From contig NZ_AZGF01000020.1 of assembly GCF_001434475.1 (NCBI RefSeq), forward strand, positions 1 through 42,521: a stretch of DNA of 42,521 nucleotides, given 5' to 3'. A model generated the notes under the pieces. It saw nothing but the letters and a program-made list of their open reading frames with translations. It was not told the origin of the DNA and made no database searches. Shown here one piece after another: positions 15,764 through 37,600 of the stretch (its first letter is position 1; every line of letters starts with the position of its first letter). The stretch is from Paucilactobacillus suebicus DSM 5007 = KCTC 3549. GTDB lineage: Bacteria > Bacillota > Bacilli > Lactobacillales > Lactobacillaceae. The position numbers were made by a program, and so were the translations under genes.

Positions 15764-16315
15764 TTATACACTGTTAACAACTGTTTTCGAATAAGTTCGA
15801 ACTATTTGAGGGGTGGACTGGTGAACTATATGACCTGGATTGCCAACAACTGTTGATGAAGCAGGTACATCATTTAAAACTACAGTACCCGCACCAATTT
15901 TTGCTTGTGCACCTACCGTAATATTGCCTAATAACATTGCATTGGCACCAATAAACACATGATTTCCTACCACAGGGTGTCGCCGTCCTGATTGCGCCTT
16001 TCTTGATCCTAATGTGACCCCATGTAAAATAGTCACGTAATCGCCAACAACCGCTGTTTCACCAATTACGACACCGAGCCCGTGATCAATAAAAACATGT
16101 TTCCCAATCTTGGCCCCTGGATGAATTTCAACACCTGTCATCACTTTAGACAAATGAGCCACTAGTGATGCGGACAAATACCGATGATGGCGATATAACC
16201 AGTGAGCAATCCTATGAATACCAAGTGCATGAAACCCGGAGTATGTTAGAATCACTTCCCACACACTTTTAGCCGCAGGATCTTGTTTTACAATGTAGCG
16301 TGCTGCATCAAACAT
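15764..16315 (-). CDS. cysE: Serine O-acetyltransferase
   Basis: CysE acetylates serine with acetyl-CoA, supplying O-acetylserine. At 183 residues it is the short Gram-positive form: a brief helical N-terminus, then a left-handed beta-helix with HPGAKIGKHVFIDHG (catalytic His region), LHGVTLG and the RRHPVVGNHVFIGA acyl-CoA segment. GGAG is 9 nt before the ATG. It is the last gene of the cysK-lyase-cysE operon, 22 bp after the lyase gene. Together they can make O-acetylserine, cysteine and cystathionine. Confidence 0.95.
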   Translation of the reverse strand: MFDAARYIVKQDPAAKSVWEVILTYSGFHALGIHRIAHWLYRHHRYLSASLVAHLSKVMTGVEIHPGAKIGKHVFIDHGLGVVIGETAVVGDYVTILHGVTLGSRKAQSGRRHPVVGNHVFIGANAMLLGNITVGAQAKIGAGTVVLNDVPASSTVVGNPGHIVHQSTPQIVRTYSKTVVNSV

Positions 16316-16337: not shown

Positions 16338-17477
16338 CTATAGTTGTGCCAATCCTTGCTTTAGATCATCAATTAAATCTTCTTCATCTTCGATACCAAC
16401 TGATAAACGAATCAATTCATCCTTAATACCACTCTTCAAGCGAATATCGCGAGGGATGGCACCATGAGTCATTACTGCTGGAATTTCAATTAAACTTTCA
16501 ATTCCTCCAAGACTTTCTGCTAAGGCAACAATGTTTAACCCTTCAACAAATTTTTTCGGGTCAAGTCCATCTTGAAGCTCAAATGAAATCATAGCACCAA
16601 AGTGTTTCATCTGTTTTTTAGCAATTTCATATCCTTCAAAGTCAGGATCACCAGGATAATATATCTTAGCAACGCGATCATCGTTTTTTAGTAGGTCAAC
16701 CACAGCTGCTGCATTTTCGTGATGAACACGCATCCGTGCCCCCAACGTTTTAATTCCTCGTTGAAGTAACCAGCTGTCGTCAGGTCCAAGAACGCCGCCA
16801 ATTGAATTTTGAAGGAATCCAATTTCTTCCGCAATTGCAGGATCGTTCGTAACTGCAAAGCCGGCAACCAAATCACTGTGACCACCAAGATACTTAGTAG
16901 CTGAGTGAACAACCACATCGGCACCCAACGCTAATGGATTTTGGTTATAAGGTGTCGCAAACGTATTATCAACAATCGTCTTGATGTTGTGACTTTTGGC
17001 AATTTTAGCAACTGCAGCAATATCTGAAATCTTCAATAATGGATTTGTTGGTGTTTCAAAATAAATCGCAACCGTATTATCTTGAATTGCCGCCTCAACC
17101 TGTTTCAGATCGCTCATATCAACGGTAGTGAATTCAAGACCAAATTTTTTCAATACTTTGTTGATTAATCTGAATGTTCCACCGTACACATCGTTACCGA
17201 CAACAAAGTGATCACCAGCAGAAAACATTGAAAATACGGTGTGAATAGCTGCAGACCCAGATGCAAAAGCAAAACCAGCAGTCCCCTGTTCCAAATCGGC
17301 AATTAATTTTTCAACGGCTGCTCGAGTTGGATTTCCAGTTCTTGAATACTCCCACTTTGGTTCCCCACCAAGTACCTTCTGATGAAAAGTAGATGCTCGA
17401 TAAATTGGCATTGAAACTGCACCCGTCTCTGAATTTTCGCTGTAACCGCCGTGAATAAGTTTTGTATTAAATTTCAT
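16338..17477 (-). CDS. Cystathionine gamma-lyase / gamma-synthase (PLP enzyme)
   Basis: A 379-residue Cys/Met-metabolism PLP enzyme. The PLP lysine lies in HSATKYLGGHSD, with YSRTGNPTR and the FASGSAA substrate region upstream. In lactic acid bacteria the gene between cysK and cysE is usually a cystathionine lyase (ctl/cgl), which splits cystathionine to cysteine in reverse transsulfuration; gamma-synthase activity cannot be excluded by sequence. GGAGG is 9 nt before the ATG. It is 23 bp after cysK. Confidence 0.92.
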   Translation of the reverse strand: MKFNTKLIHGGYSENSETGAVSMPIYRASTFHQKVLGGEPKWEYSRTGNPTRAAVEKLIADLEQGTAGFAFASGSAAIHTVFSMFSAGDHFVVGNDVYGGTFRLINKVLKKFGLEFTTVDMSDLKQVEAAIQDNTVAIYFETPTNPLLKISDIAAVAKIAKSHNIKTIVDNTFATPYNQNPLALGADVVVHSATKYLGGHSDLVAGFAVTNDPAIAEEIGFLQNSIGGVLGPDDSWLLQRGIKTLGARMRVHHENAAAVVDLLKNDDRVAKIYYPGDPDFEGYEIAKKQMKHFGAMISFELQDGLDPKKFVEGLNIVALAESLGGIESLIEIPAVMTHGAIPRDIRLKSGIKDELIRLSVGIEDEEDLIDDLKQGLAQL

Positions 17478-17500: not shown

Positions 17501-18421
17501 TTAATCGTAAATGTGTTCACTCATATAACGCTCGCTTGAATCCGGAAAGATAGTCACGATTGTAGAGTGGGATGGTAATTCTGCAGCCATTTGCAAACTG
17601 GCCGCCAGTGCAGAACCGCTAGAGCTACCAGCAAACAGGCCAAGATCATGAGCTAGCATCTTAACGTTATTAAATGCATCATCATCACTAATCGTCTTAG
17701 TAACATCGATCTTTAAACCATCAAAGAACGGTGGTACAAATTCAACGCCAATACCTTCAGTTCTGTGACTGTGTGCCGTGCCACCATTCAAAATTGATCC
17801 TTCAGGCTCTACCACCACCGTTTTAATTTCTGGGTAAGCATCTTGTAATGCCTTGGCAGTACCTGCAAACGTTCCACCACTGCCAGCTCCAGCCACAAAT
17901 GCATCAATTTTTTGGTTTGCTAAATCTGCTAAGATTTCAGGCCCCAGCGTATGTTGATAAACTGATGGGTTTGCAGGATTTTCAAATTGCATTGGTACAT
18001 ATGAATTAGCAATATTTTCAGCCAGTTCACGCGCTTTTTTCATTGCCCCTTTGATGCCTTCTTCGGAAGGGGTATTAATAATTTCGGCTCCTAGCGCCGC
18101 CATCAAAGTTTGTTTTTCATAACTGAACTTCTCAGGTACAACTAGTTTGACTGGAAGGTGATATCTTTGAGCAGCAAGTGCAACTCCAATTCCTGTATTA
18201 CCTGCAGTTGGTTCAATAATTGTCGTTCCCTCACTAATTTCACCAATTTCAATTCCGCGTTGAATTAGTGCCATGCCCAAACGATCCTTAATGCTGCCAC
18301 CGGGATTAAAAGACTCCAGCTTAGCATAAATAATGCTTTCATTAGGCGTAGCAATGTTTAATTTCATTAACGGCGTGTGTCCAATCAAATCATAAACGCT
18401 ATCTACCAACATATTTAACAT
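17501..18421 (-). CDS. cysK: Cysteine synthase / O-acetylserine-dependent cystathionine beta-synthase
   Basis: A fold-type II PLP enzyme of about 303-306 residues. The PLP lysine lies in NPGGSIKDR and the carboxylate loop reads EPTAGNTG. CysK usually has EPTSGNTG; the Ala form is typical of MccA-like cystathionine beta-synthases of Bacillus, so either cysteine from sulfide or cystathionine from homocysteine may be made. With the lyase and cysE downstream, the operon would cover reverse transsulfuration. Start: ATG at 18421 lies only 3-4 nt from AAGGG, while ATG at 18412 ([14 protein letters not shown]) is about 12 nt away and fits the family better. A cysteine leader attenuator precedes the gene. 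Confidence 0.94.
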
Positions 18422-18443
18422 CTTCCCTTCGATTTATGAGGAA

Positions 18444-18486
18444 TAAAAAAAGACGTAAATTCAAAATTGAATTTACGTCTTATACG
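18444..18486 (-). terminator. Attenuator terminator of the cysK operon
   Basis: On the minus strand a perfect 15-bp inverted repeat (AAGACGTAAATTCAA at 18467-18481; TTGAATTTACGTCTT at 18450-18464) runs into seven T residues, 23-30 bp before cysK. It stops transcription before the operon, so it is regulatory. Its 5' arm and preceding bases (CGTATAAGACGT, 18475-18486) can instead pair with an upstream segment (18543-18554). Confidence 0.85.
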
Positions 18487-18520
18487 ATTCATCCCGATTT
18501 AATTGAGTGCTAGTTTAAAT

Positions 18521-18613
18521 TTAGGCACACCAACTAGTGGGTCGCATAAGACGCGATCCACAGCAACATGCAGCAGCAATACTATTATTTGCGTTGATGT
18601 ATGTTTGTGTCAT
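18521..18613 (-). CDS. Cysteine leader peptide (30 aa) controlling the cysK operon
   Basis: A 30-codon ORF with a strong ribosome site (GGAGGT, 7 nt spacing). It contains three consecutive Cys codons TGT-TGC-TGT (codons 16-18, within AAACCCGS) and a fourth Cys codon near the end (WCA, codon 29). Five nt after the Cys run lies GCGTCTTATGCG (18554-18543). That segment can be held in a protector hairpin (18559-18539) or can pair over 12 bp with the base of the terminator. A ribosome stalled at the Cys codons would mask the protector arm and free the antiterminator, so cysteine shortage should turn the operon on. The peptide itself probably has no further role. Confidence 0.85.
   Translation of the reverse strand: MTQTYINANNSIAAACCCGSRLMRPTSWCA
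18539..18559 (-). promoter_or_regulatory. Protector (anti-antiterminator) hairpin of the cys leader
   Basis: GGATCGC pairs with GCGACCC (6 bp, one A-C mismatch) around the 7-nt loop GTCTTAT. It starts directly after the third Cys codon. The loop and its flanks are the antiterminator strand, so forming this hairpin favours termination. Confidence 0.65.
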
Positions 18614-18640
18614 TCAAACTACCTCCAATTGATTGAAATC

Positions 18641-18669
18641 AGAATACCTTAGTTTTTTTAACATGTCAA
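18641..18669 (-). promoter_or_regulatory. Promoter of the cysteine leader and cysK operon
   Basis: A consensus -35 TTGACA (18664-18669) and TATTCT (18641-18646) are separated by exactly 17 bp. Transcription would start near 18634, about 20 nt before the leader ATG. Confidence 0.8.
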
Positions 18670-18798
18670 ATAAAAAAATATTATTTTTAGCTTATTTGAT
18701 GTTATTAAATATTGAATAAATACCGCTACTATCAGCTATATTGTAACCTTTTGTAAAATAAAATTTTATTTACAATACGCTGTTTTTGATGATTTCTT
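18670..18798. other. AT-rich spacer with a 25-bp near-palindrome
   Basis: There is no ORF here. A near-perfect AT-rich palindrome (TTGTAAAATA ... TATTTACAA, 18751-18775) lies about 80 bp upstream of the cys promoter -35 box. It could bind a regulator, but I cannot assign one. Confidence 0.4.
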
Positions 18799-19056
18799 CC
18801 TAGTCGTGCAATTCTCCACAGATGCTCAATATATAAGGGTCGCTAGGACATTGATCGCATAGTTCGTATTGTATTTTACTGCTGCCTAGTCGTGCAATTC
18901 CCCACAGATGCTCAATATATGAGGGTCGCCAGGACATTGATCGCATAGTTCGTATTGTATTTTACTGCTGCCTAGTCGTGCAATTCTCCACAGATGTTCA
19001 ATATATAAGGGCCACCAGGACATCAATCGCATAGTTCGCGATCAACGTCCTGGTGG
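18799..19056. repeat. Three tandem 86-bp repeats
   Basis: Units begin CCTAGTCGTGCAATTC at 18799, 18885 and 18971, exactly 86 bp apart. Each holds the outer arm, core (CACAGATG) and inner arm of the left half of the hairpin at 18978-19093. The first two units share nearly all bases. The third differs in the inner arm (CCACCAGGAC) and diverges after the loop. Confidence 0.85.
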
Positions 19057-19093
19057 CTCTTATATATCAGCATCTAACCGTGGAGAATTGCAC
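18978..19093 (-). repeat. Long intergenic hairpin after ispE (variable-arm repeat family, copy 2)
   Basis: A 116-nt palindrome: 14-nt outer arms (GTGCAATTCTCCAC at 18978-18991 with 19080-19093), left core AGATGTTCA, right core CAGCATCTAACC, inner arms of 21 nt (19001-19021 with 19047-19067, pairing except one G-T position) and a loop that can fold further. It begins 2 nt after the ispE stop. Geometry and core match the copy after pyrG, but the arms do not. Confidence 0.8.
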
Positions 19094-19095
19094 TG

Positions 19096-19950
19096 TTATA
19101 ATGCCCTAACCAAATAAACCTCGTGACAAAATCCTCGCAAACTATTTTGTAGGCGTTTTGCTCTTGATAATTTTTTGCATACTCCAAATACCGTGGGACC
19201 CGTTCCACTCATTTGGGCCGTTTCTGCCCCATGCATCAGCATTTTTTGTTTTAGTTTCGTTATTTCTGGGTATGAACGATTGGTCAGTGGTTCGAGAACA
19301 TTACCCATGGCTTTAAATAATAATTCTTCGTTGCTCGTTTCCAATCCTTCAATAATCTGATCAATATCCACATTGTGATTCAAATGTTCGTAATCAATTT
19401 TTTTTAAAATCGTAGGGGTTGATACACTAACTTTAGGTTTAGCAATTACCACTGGATAATGTGGAAATGGATCAAGGAGTTCAATTTTTTCTCCATGTCC
19501 TGTAACGTGTGCGGTTTGATTGTAAACACAGTAAGGAACGTCAGAATCAATTGTCAACGAAATAGTCGCTAATTCCTCCAGGCTCAGTCCTAAATTCCAA
19601 ACTCGATTCAGCGCACGCAATACAGCCGCTGCATCAGCTGATCCGCCACCCAGTCCTGCAGCAACTGGAATATTTTTTTTAATTTTTACCGTGACGCCAT
19701 CTCGTTGGTGAAACCTATTTCTTAAGATATGTACTGCCTGATAGGCTAAATTACGTTGATCATTGGGTAAAAAACCACTATCAGTATAAATCTTAATCTG
19801 TTTGTTTTTTTGATGGACTTCAACATTGACGTAATCTGCCAAGTCAACAGAAGTCATCACCATATTCCACTGCGGTGACCCATCCAAATAGCGCATCGGT
19901 GTATCCAGTCCCAGATTGATCTTAGCTGGTGCTTTTTCGATTACGTTCAC
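19096..19950 (-). CDS. ispE: 4-diphosphocytidyl-2-C-methyl-D-erythritol kinase (IspE) homologue
   Basis: A GHMP kinase of 284 residues with AKINLGL at the N-terminus, the ATP loop PVAAGLGGGSADAAA and the C-terminal MSGTGPTVFG motif. IspE phosphorylates CDP-methylerythritol in the MEP isoprenoid pathway. This genome also carries HMG-CoA reductase of the mevalonate route, so the role here is open. The GTG start at 19950 has AAGGAGG 8 nt upstream; more upstream starts lack a site and would overlap the promoter. It follows ksgA and veg as in many Firmicutes. Confidence 0.93.
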   Translation of the reverse strand: MNVIEKAPAKINLGLDTPMRYLDGSPQWNMVMTSVDLADYVNVEVHQKNKQIKIYTDSGFLPNDQRNLAYQAVHILRNRFHQRDGVTVKIKKNIPVAAGLGGGSADAAAVLRALNRVWNLGLSLEELATISLTIDSDVPYCVYNQTAHVTGHGEKIELLDPFPHYPVVIAKPKVSVSTPTILKKIDYEHLNHNVDIDQIIEGLETSNEELLFKAMGNVLEPLTNRSYPEITKLKQKMLMHGAETAQMSGTGPTVFGVCKKLSRAKRLQNSLRGFCHEVYLVRAL

Positions 19951-31533: not shown

Positions 31534-31715
31534 AAAAAAAGCCTACTGCAATAATGCAATAGGACGTCGTCGCGCGGTACCACCTAACTTGCAGCATTCG
31601 AGCTGCCTCTCATCCCTTACGGCGGGAAACCATCTTCACCCATTTCGCGTACTTGAAGTCTTCTCACCAACTGCACTTCTCGCTGAATCGACGCTACTTA
31701 TAACTCTTTAAGTGT
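31534..31715 (-). promoter_or_regulatory. T-box riboswitch of trpS
   Basis: On the minus strand the conserved T-box GGTGGTACCGCG (31573-31584) precedes a terminator (CCTATTGCA / TGCAGTAGG plus seven T). Upstream is a Stem I region with the GGTGAGA loop. A TGG triplet in AAATGGGTG (31640-31642) is the likely specifier codon, matching Trp. The exact specifier was judged by eye. Confidence 0.9.
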
Positions 31716-31797
31716 ACCGATCAAAGCAACAAAAGTAAAGAACCCTAATTCAAATAACAAACATTCTTAATCACTAGCGGATATTTGGCTCAATTGC

Positions 31798-37322: not shown

Positions 37323-37600
37323 AAAAAAAGTCCTTATTAGACTATCTAGTCTAATAAGGACGCATCGCGTGTTACCACCTCATAATTGCACATTCTTCAC
37401 AGAACATGCCTCACCAGGTACGGTCACAATTGTGACGATACCTTGGCACTATAATGGGTGCACCCATTGAACACTCGAAACTCGCATTCAACTCTCAGAG
37501 ATTACTTTCAACCTGTACAAGCTCCCCATTCTCACCAATCTAGGGGTCTCTTAAGTCCTGCAAAGGCCTACTCTTCTCATCAACGTTCTAATTTATCTTT
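37323..37600 (-). promoter_or_regulatory. T-box riboswitch of brnQ (branched-chain)
   Basis: On the minus strand GGTGGTAACACGCG (37366-37379) is a T-box of the variant common in Ile/Leu leaders. It is followed by a 14-bp terminator (GTCCTTATTAGACT / AGTCTAATAAGGAC, 37330-37361) and seven T residues. Stem I with GGTGAGA lies upstream. In the Stem I 3' side, AATCTC offers ATC (37500-37502, Ile) or CTC (Leu) as specifier; I favour ATC but cannot fold it to be sure. The rest of the 440-bp gap between brnQ and the acyltransferase gene shows no ORF. Confidence 0.9.

Follow-up and report, generated by a model that had tools for sequence, protein, structure and literature searches.

A poly-cysteine leader peptide with a predicted transcription attenuator ahead of cysK-ctl-cysE in Paucilactobacillus suebicus and its counterparts in the Lactobacillales

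Introduction

Ahead of the cysK-ctl-cysE operon of Paucilactobacillus suebicus lies a short open reading frame (ORF) with three cysteine codons in a row, which raises the question of whether the operon is controlled by ribosome-mediated transcription attenuation, and if so, how far such control extends among related bacteria. The classical attenuators are those of the trp and his operons of enterobacteria. The locus was analysed within a 42,521-nucleotide stretch of contig NZ_AZGF01000020.1 (hereafter the window).

Regulation of a homologous operon has been described. According to the accessible part of PMC6004538 (2018), cysK2-ctl1-cysE2 of the cheese bacterium Lacticaseibacillus paracasei FAM18149 was expressed log2 2.9-3.2 higher in cysteine-deficient than in methionine-deficient medium. 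The same part of that text reports high coverage of the 5'-UTR and a rho-independent terminator, with a T-box absent; its authors called the mechanism "yet to be discovered". A palindrome, AAAGGGCGCGAA-N(11-18)-TTCGCGCCTTTT, was put forward as a potential regulatory motif by Liu et al. 2012; as quoted in the accessible part of PMC6004538, this motif comes with no leader ORF and no antiterminator. The cysK-ctl-cysE cluster is described as highly mobile in PMC6200037, whose available text had no hit for "leader" or "terminator".

In this study, the leader of the P. suebicus operon was dissected, its counterparts were collected from the genus, the family and the order, and the reading as an attenuator was weighed against other explanations.

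Results

On the minus strand, every leader element was found in sequence between 18669 and 18443, ahead of cysK-ctl-cysE. A sigma-A type promoter (TTGACA-17-TATTCT, 18641-18669, 10/12 matches) is followed by the Shine-Dalgarno (SD) sequence GGAGG (18622-18626), recognised by reading the sequence and by comparison within the genus, and by a leader ORF of 30 codons, MTQTYINANNSIAAACCCGSRLMRPTSWCA (18521-18613), which ends in a stop codon, is predicted to be translated and has counterparts in relatives. Codons 16-18 form a run for the product of the pathway, namely three consecutive Cys codons (18560-18568) that recur in relatives and are proposed to be the sensor, and codon 29 (18529-18527) encodes another Cys. 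The regulatory Cys codons are overlapped by a protector hairpin of arms 1 and 2 (18537-18561), which folds at -11.5 kcal/mol. Pairing and alignment identify arm 2 (18542-18554) as the 5' strand of an antiterminator as well, the 3' strand of which, arm 3 (18475-18487), makes use of the 5' arm of the terminator. The intrinsic terminator itself, a stem-loop of arms 3 and 4 with 14 pairs (18450-18481) seen in sequence, folding and alignment, sits between the leader ORF and cysK, and a T run follows its stem (18449-18443). The promoter, ribosome site, 30-codon ORF, Cys codons 16-18 and 29, protector and terminator named in the first-pass annotation are thus all borne out by the sequence. The alternative pairing of 12 bp that it had claimed, 18554-18543 with 18486-18475 (10 Watson-Crick and 2 G-U pairs), is exact, and a thirteenth pair, 18542-18487, lengthens it to 13 bp.

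The predicted folding energy of the 186-nt leader lies 4.5 SD under that of its dinucleotide shuffles, none of which equals it (0/200). The TGYTGYTGY pattern occurs at 404 places in the P. suebicus genome, too many to be informative, and the covariance model R1, run on the same genome with stricter search filters, has a single match, the cysK leader. The first regulated gene, cysK (17501-18421, minus strand), encodes a cysteine synthase / cystathionine beta-synthase-like protein (TIGR01136 at 302 bits and TIGR01139 at 300 bits, both below cut-offs). It is followed on the same strand by ctl (16338-17477), of the cystathionine gamma-lyase / gamma-synthase family (PRK06176 at 590 bits and PRK07671 at 546 bits, both below cut-offs), and by cysE (15764-16315), a serine O-acetyltransferase (TIGR01172, 217 bits, above cut-off).

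Within the genus Paucilactobacillus, a DNA search gave leader matches in all seven genomes, and in 7/7 an ORF with CCCGSR(L/F)MRPT and GGAGG stands ahead of the CysK ortholog. TTGACA with a suitably spaced -10 box was matched by regular expression in 6/7 members, and the seventh (L007) has, by eye, TATTGT as its -10 box. The Cys at codon 29 is at the same place in four of the seven, one codon earlier in two and absent from one, and among the leaders listed from other genera it recurs only in L049 and L051. Because of this patchy conservation, codon 29 was dropped as a second sensor. Stalling at this codon, which had been suggested to disrupt the protector, is accordingly not supported; a ribosome there would additionally cover part of the antiterminator arm.

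The three stems were followed through an alignment of 45 distinct close relatives, which excludes four loci: L065 (N), and L061, L088 and L101 (different terminator). All three are kept. In the terminator, 96.7% of the cells are paired (slid controls 23.0-56.1%), in the antiterminator 92.6% (20.9-53.0%) and in the protector 90.3% (15.8-46.5%). The paired cells of the antiterminator are not reached by any of 500 column shuffles, and those of the protector show no excess over column shuffles. Since the rows are related, the following counts of changes are not counts of independent events: both sides have changed in 8/13 terminator pairs, in 2/13 antiterminator pairs (one G-C in 36 and A-U in 9, the second with a single two-sided change; 84/500 column shuffles match this) and in one protector pair (G-C in 39, A-U in 6). 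Of the covariation that the first-pass annotation had proposed to look for, there is thus much in the terminator, little in the antiterminator and a single pair in the protector. The outermost antiterminator pair is broken in 26/45 relatives and one other pair in 11/45. At alignment columns 17/102/134, which belong to arms 2, 3 and 4, the 45 relatives read GCG (36), ATA (7) or ATG (2), a change that replaces Arg by His in the peptide and leaves arms 2:3 and 3:4 paired.

To survey the family, 397 genomes were scanned with a degenerate CCCGSRLMRP pattern at up to 2 mismatches, giving 31 places in 27/397 genomes and 6/40 genera; a reversed control pattern had matches in at least two of the 397. 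Twenty-three of the places were examined; the script returned no reading for three of them (L034, L035, L044). Two others (L048, L050) were rejected as not being leaders ahead of cys genes, and the sixth genus was lost with them. The other 18 of the 23 have a poly-Cys ORF, then cysK, a lyase gene or an amino-acid ABC permease gene as the first long ORF; for L043 and L046 the first long downstream ORF lies at 699 and 1246 nt. Several genomes of one genus carry two leader copies, each before a different gene. A scan of named records gave 37 loci under titles of Paucilactobacillus, Limosilactobacillus, Companilactobacillus or Lactobacillus.

A CysK protein search had matches in 53 of 131 family genomes, at 30 ortholog places (at least 60% identity, 11 genera) and 28 more distant ones. 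A poly-Cys leader was defined as an ORF that contains at least two Cys codons in a row, and such an ORF was present upstream of all 30 orthologs in this survey, so that conservation of the Cys codons, one of the checks proposed at the outset, is established for these. The 30 upstreams comprise 6 from the genus, 3 fetched earlier and 21 newly fetched, and in the latter the leader was found by script in 18 and by eye in L102, L104 and L107; in L102 and L104 the SD is not recognisable. The peptides diverge beyond the Cys run (CCCEPRLTRF, CCCVPRLSRY, CCQTSRV, CCSTTRFRCC, CCLSSRH, CCCLIPRV and others). Judged from such comparisons, the leader is not a chance arrangement, and its peptide drifts outside the Cys run while the predicted RNA pairing stays.

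Some loci depart from this layout. In the cysK leaders L061 and L101 (genomes G393 and G049, one lineage) and L088, the CCC codons and arm 2 are retained, but the matching terminator has given way to an unrelated hairpin that ends in a T tail; control may be lost or altered in these. Nineteen of the 28 distant CysK places were fetched, and L124, L127, L128 and L131 among them have a poly-Cys ORF and a terminator before the operon, which is a distant cysE-cysK operon. In the shuffle test of arm 2:3 pairing L124 passes, and L127, L128 and L131 fail. These three, with a poly-Cys ORF and terminator and no arm 2:3 pairing detected, possibly represent a second, different cysteine leader. Further two-Cys ORFs were seen upstream of distant CysK genes, e.g., at L138 and L139.

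The covariance model R1 had matches at E <= 0.01 in 82/301 family genomes and 27/40 genera, many of them weak. Among 20 further R1 places that were fetched, 16 precede cysK, a lyase gene, an ABC permease gene or an apparent cysE-like gene, and L231, L232, L235 and L237 were set aside as weak matches because no leader is present. The Cys run is interrupted in four of the 16 (L225, L226, L233, L234), which are relatives of the ABC permease leader from one genus and have TGT-CTT-TGT or TGT-CCT-TGT in place of CCC, i.e., Cys-Leu-Cys or Cys-Pro-Cys with the frame taken from the start of the match. The genes found behind leaders, i.e., cysK, ctl, an apparent cysE-like gene and an amino-acid ABC permease gene, are genes of cysteine supply.

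A search of 295 genomes of the order found CysK orthologs (E <= 1e-95) in 54, 45 of which lie outside the family. Twenty of these 45 upstreams, from five families, were fetched, and 19 contain an ORF in which at least two Cys stand side by side, including a leader with seven Cys within nine residues (L177); the remaining upstream (L180) shows no leader. Chance was assessed on 41 fetched ortholog upstreams of 500 nt each (21 from inside the family, 20 from outside), with an SD-led ORF of up to 48 aa containing consecutive Cys as the criterion. Two or more Cys occurred on the sense strand of 36/41, on the antisense strand of 0/41 and in 67/2050 shuffles; for three or more Cys the counts were 24/41, 0/41 and 1/2050, respectively. 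The arm 2:3 pairing passed the shuffle test in 8 of the 19 leaders from other families. The first-pass annotation knew of no such description for a lactobacillus cysteine operon and placed its claim to novelty on this single one; what was found is a device spread over much of the order.

The distance between Cys run and antiterminator bears on whether a stalled ribosome could operate the switch. Positions are counted here from the first Cys nucleotide. A ribosome whose A site holds the first Cys codon would cover the RNA to about +12, going by the size of its footprint. In the window, with this general footprint, the leading edge of a ribosome stalled at codon 16 would lie at ~18556-18555, just ahead of the antiterminator arm, as had been proposed, so that the stall is modelled to free this arm. 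In 20 of 22 diverged leaders, a set that includes two Lacticaseibacillus plasmids and some near copies, the best arm 2:3 duplex starts at +12 to +17 (exceptions L111, L119), close to the expected leading edge of a ribosome held up at the first Cys codon. In 20/22, with L105 and L121 as the exceptions, no more than 5 of 100 shuffles match the pairing. The best duplex of close relatives often extends 5', from about +4.

Folding predictions were made with the ribosome represented as a mask. When all of the window leader up to 18556 is masked, the predicted minimum goes from terminator to antiterminator, and the lower terminator pairs are lost. For the window RNA to the end of arm 3, the energy is equal with and without the mask, and the order of folding must therefore matter. 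Partition-function folding of 46 close relatives (L061 included) and the 22 diverged leaders at 14 mask positions showed a dip in terminator probability at masks +10 to +16, with few leaders crossing 0.5. The probability fell below 0.5 in 9/46 close relatives and 4/22 diverged leaders at mask +13, in 2/46 and 2/22 at mask -7, and in 1/46 and 0/22 at mask +22, at which arm 2 is partly hidden. Equilibrium folding thus favours the finished terminator in most masked leaders, and the switch would have to be kinetic. Given the modest effect and the few leaders below 0.5, equilibrium folding supports a switch weakly and was rejected as proof of it.

Further features were seen elsewhere in the window. 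The only Rfam match at gathering score is an L31-Firmicutes ribosomal protein leader at 335-367. Two T-box matches below the Rfam gathering score, at 31557-31717 and 37353-37592, precede what we take to be trpS and a branched-chain amino-acid transporter gene, respectively. Between cysK and the next gene, presumably ispE-like, direct repeats (by eye) and an inverted copy occupy 18790-19100; this repeat has partial matches of 62, 48, 24 and 24 nt on four other contigs of the genome and is perhaps a small mobile or REP-like element.

Discussion

Ribosome-mediated transcription attenuation in response to a shortage of Cys-tRNA is, with high confidence, the best explanation for the leader. The parts of the leader, their retention in relatives, the changes that restore pairing and, within the family, a spacing between Cys codons and antiterminator that hardly varies are all observed, and each hallmark of such an attenuator that sequence can reveal is present; leader translation, the ribosome stall and the order of folding are what we infer from them. 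In the proposed mechanism, a short transcript would begin at the promoter and a ribosome would trail RNA polymerase along the leader ORF. With ample Cys-tRNA, the ribosome would clear the CCC codons and the protector (arms 1:2) would form behind it, leaving arm 3 free for arm 4, and transcription would stop before cysK. When Cys-tRNA is scarce, the ribosome would stall with the first Cys codon in the A site, hiding arm 1 with arm 2 just exposed; arm 2 could then pair with arm 3, the terminator would be blocked and cysK-ctl-cysE would be transcribed.

Other explanations differ in what the Cys codons are for. The CCC peptide might arrest in the ribosome tunnel and there sense cysteine, a thiol, a metal or redox state and not the lack of Cys-tRNA, and CCCGSRLMRPT is indeed nearly constant in close relatives from several genera. 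This constancy is, however, explained by the two overlapping RNA pairings. Across genera, moreover, the residues around the Cys run vary widely (CCCLIPRV, CCSTTRFRCC, CCCRTTRFW, CCCTIKIV), and amino-acid changes occur at sites where RNA pairing persists: the RNA pairs survive the replacement of Arg by His and that of Gly by Glu together with Pro by Leu, for which reason peptide constraint was rejected as the main cause of conservation. Nascent-peptide arrest is therefore considered improbable. The chance is slimmer still that the ORF encodes a functional cysteine-rich peptide, e.g., a metal-binding one, co-expressed with the operon. It would account for a conserved leader ORF with a ribosome site of its own, whereas the sequence and length of the peptide vary outside the Cys run and a peptide gene would need no terminator with a competing arm.

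Equally slim is the chance that control of the operon lies with a T-box, a riboswitch or a repressor site, the leader ORF being incidental. T-boxes, which had been named as an expected mode, are common in the P. suebicus genome (34 matches, 8 above cut-off), and in L. paracasei one Cys T-box lies elsewhere in the genome, according to the accessible part of PMC6004538. Yet the scan of the P. suebicus genome gave no T-box (RF00230) covariance match ahead of cysK, and the window leader has no Rfam match at gathering score. At an E-value of 0.01, tRNA genes were all that Rfam matched in the 40 ortholog upstreams scanned out of the 41 fetched (all but L121), the T-box motif GGGTGGNACC occurred on the sense strand of 0/60 fetched regions, and the poly-Cys ORFs of the control set are confined to the sense strand.

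As a Cys-tRNA-responsive attenuator, the leader would share with the trp and his attenuators consecutive codons for the amino acid that the pathway makes, a protector, an antiterminator and an intrinsic terminator with shared arms, a likeness of generally known architecture; unlike these, it would sense cysteine, and in a host of the Lactobacillales. Work by Canestrari in 2020 reportedly described polycysteine leaderless small ORFs in mycobacterial cys operons. As far as the available text of PMC1262725 goes, the mycobacterial system likewise has a poly-Cys ORF ahead of cysteine genes and cysteine-responsive attenuation; it has no conserved terminator hairpin, with Rho suggested instead, and its ORFs are leaderless and described there with no shared arms, whereas the lactobacillus leader is SD-led and has a terminator. 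uORFC-8-2, before cysS of Rhodobacterales, is similar in its predicted ribosome-mediated attenuation, consecutive Cys codons and terminator, and differs in its target (a cysteinyl-tRNA synthetase), its alphaproteobacterial host, its two Cys codons and its two-stem model, according to the accessible part of PMC8632094. The histidine leader peptides of hisZ/hisS* in bacilli are, in the accessible part of PMC2965389, regular Firmicutes leader peptides that replace a T-box, and differ in that they concern histidine and synthetase paralogs. In the same part its authors state that no leader peptide system was known to them outside Proteobacteria and Actinobacteria, the atypical ermC leader aside. 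The kind of device is thus known; in searchable literature, which holds little subscription content and is mostly at the level of titles and the start of abstracts, no description of a cysteine leader peptide in lactobacilli was recognised, and none of the putative family was found.

The L. paracasei operon can be connected with this family through a plasmid copy. The terminator motif reported for FAM18149, AAGGGCGCGAAA-N16-TTTCGCGCCCTT, is present exactly in the L. paracasei plasmid locus L099 and absent from the L. rhamnosus plasmid locus L100. L099 has the CCC leader MSQSMFNAINCCCRTTRFWRCSAC, with the terminator starting 111 nt behind the first Cys nucleotide. Linked through this motif, the poly-Cys device probably controls cysK2-ctl1-cysE2 of L. 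paracasei. The palindrome of Liu et al. 2012 before lactobacillus cystathionine genes, as quoted in the accessible part of PMC6004538, is very probably the terminator of the poly-Cys leader family.

With less confidence than for the mechanism itself, we lean towards the view that the Lactobacillales use the poly-Cys attenuator as their standard switch for cysteine. It would then descend from a single ancient RNA whose sequence has drifted fast, with hardly more than the Cys codons and the mutually exclusive arms retained. It would have been carried as a cassette to the front of cysK, ctl, cysE-cysK and an amino-acid ABC transporter, would be plasmid-borne together with the mobile cysK-ctl-cysE, and would operate alongside Cys T-boxes in some lactobacilli. 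If true, uncharged tRNA-Cys would be one signal for two RNA devices in some lactobacilli.

The reading offers a testable mechanism for cysteine control of L. paracasei cysK2-ctl1-cysE2, and would extend classical attenuation by leader peptides to the lactic acid bacteria, a group in which control by T-boxes or repressors was expected. The drift of sequence around fixed Cys codons and arms may serve as a natural data set for the evolution of attenuators. The leaders may also open a route to predicting cysteine regulons and transporter specificity in food and gut lactobacilli, sulfur flavour pathways included.
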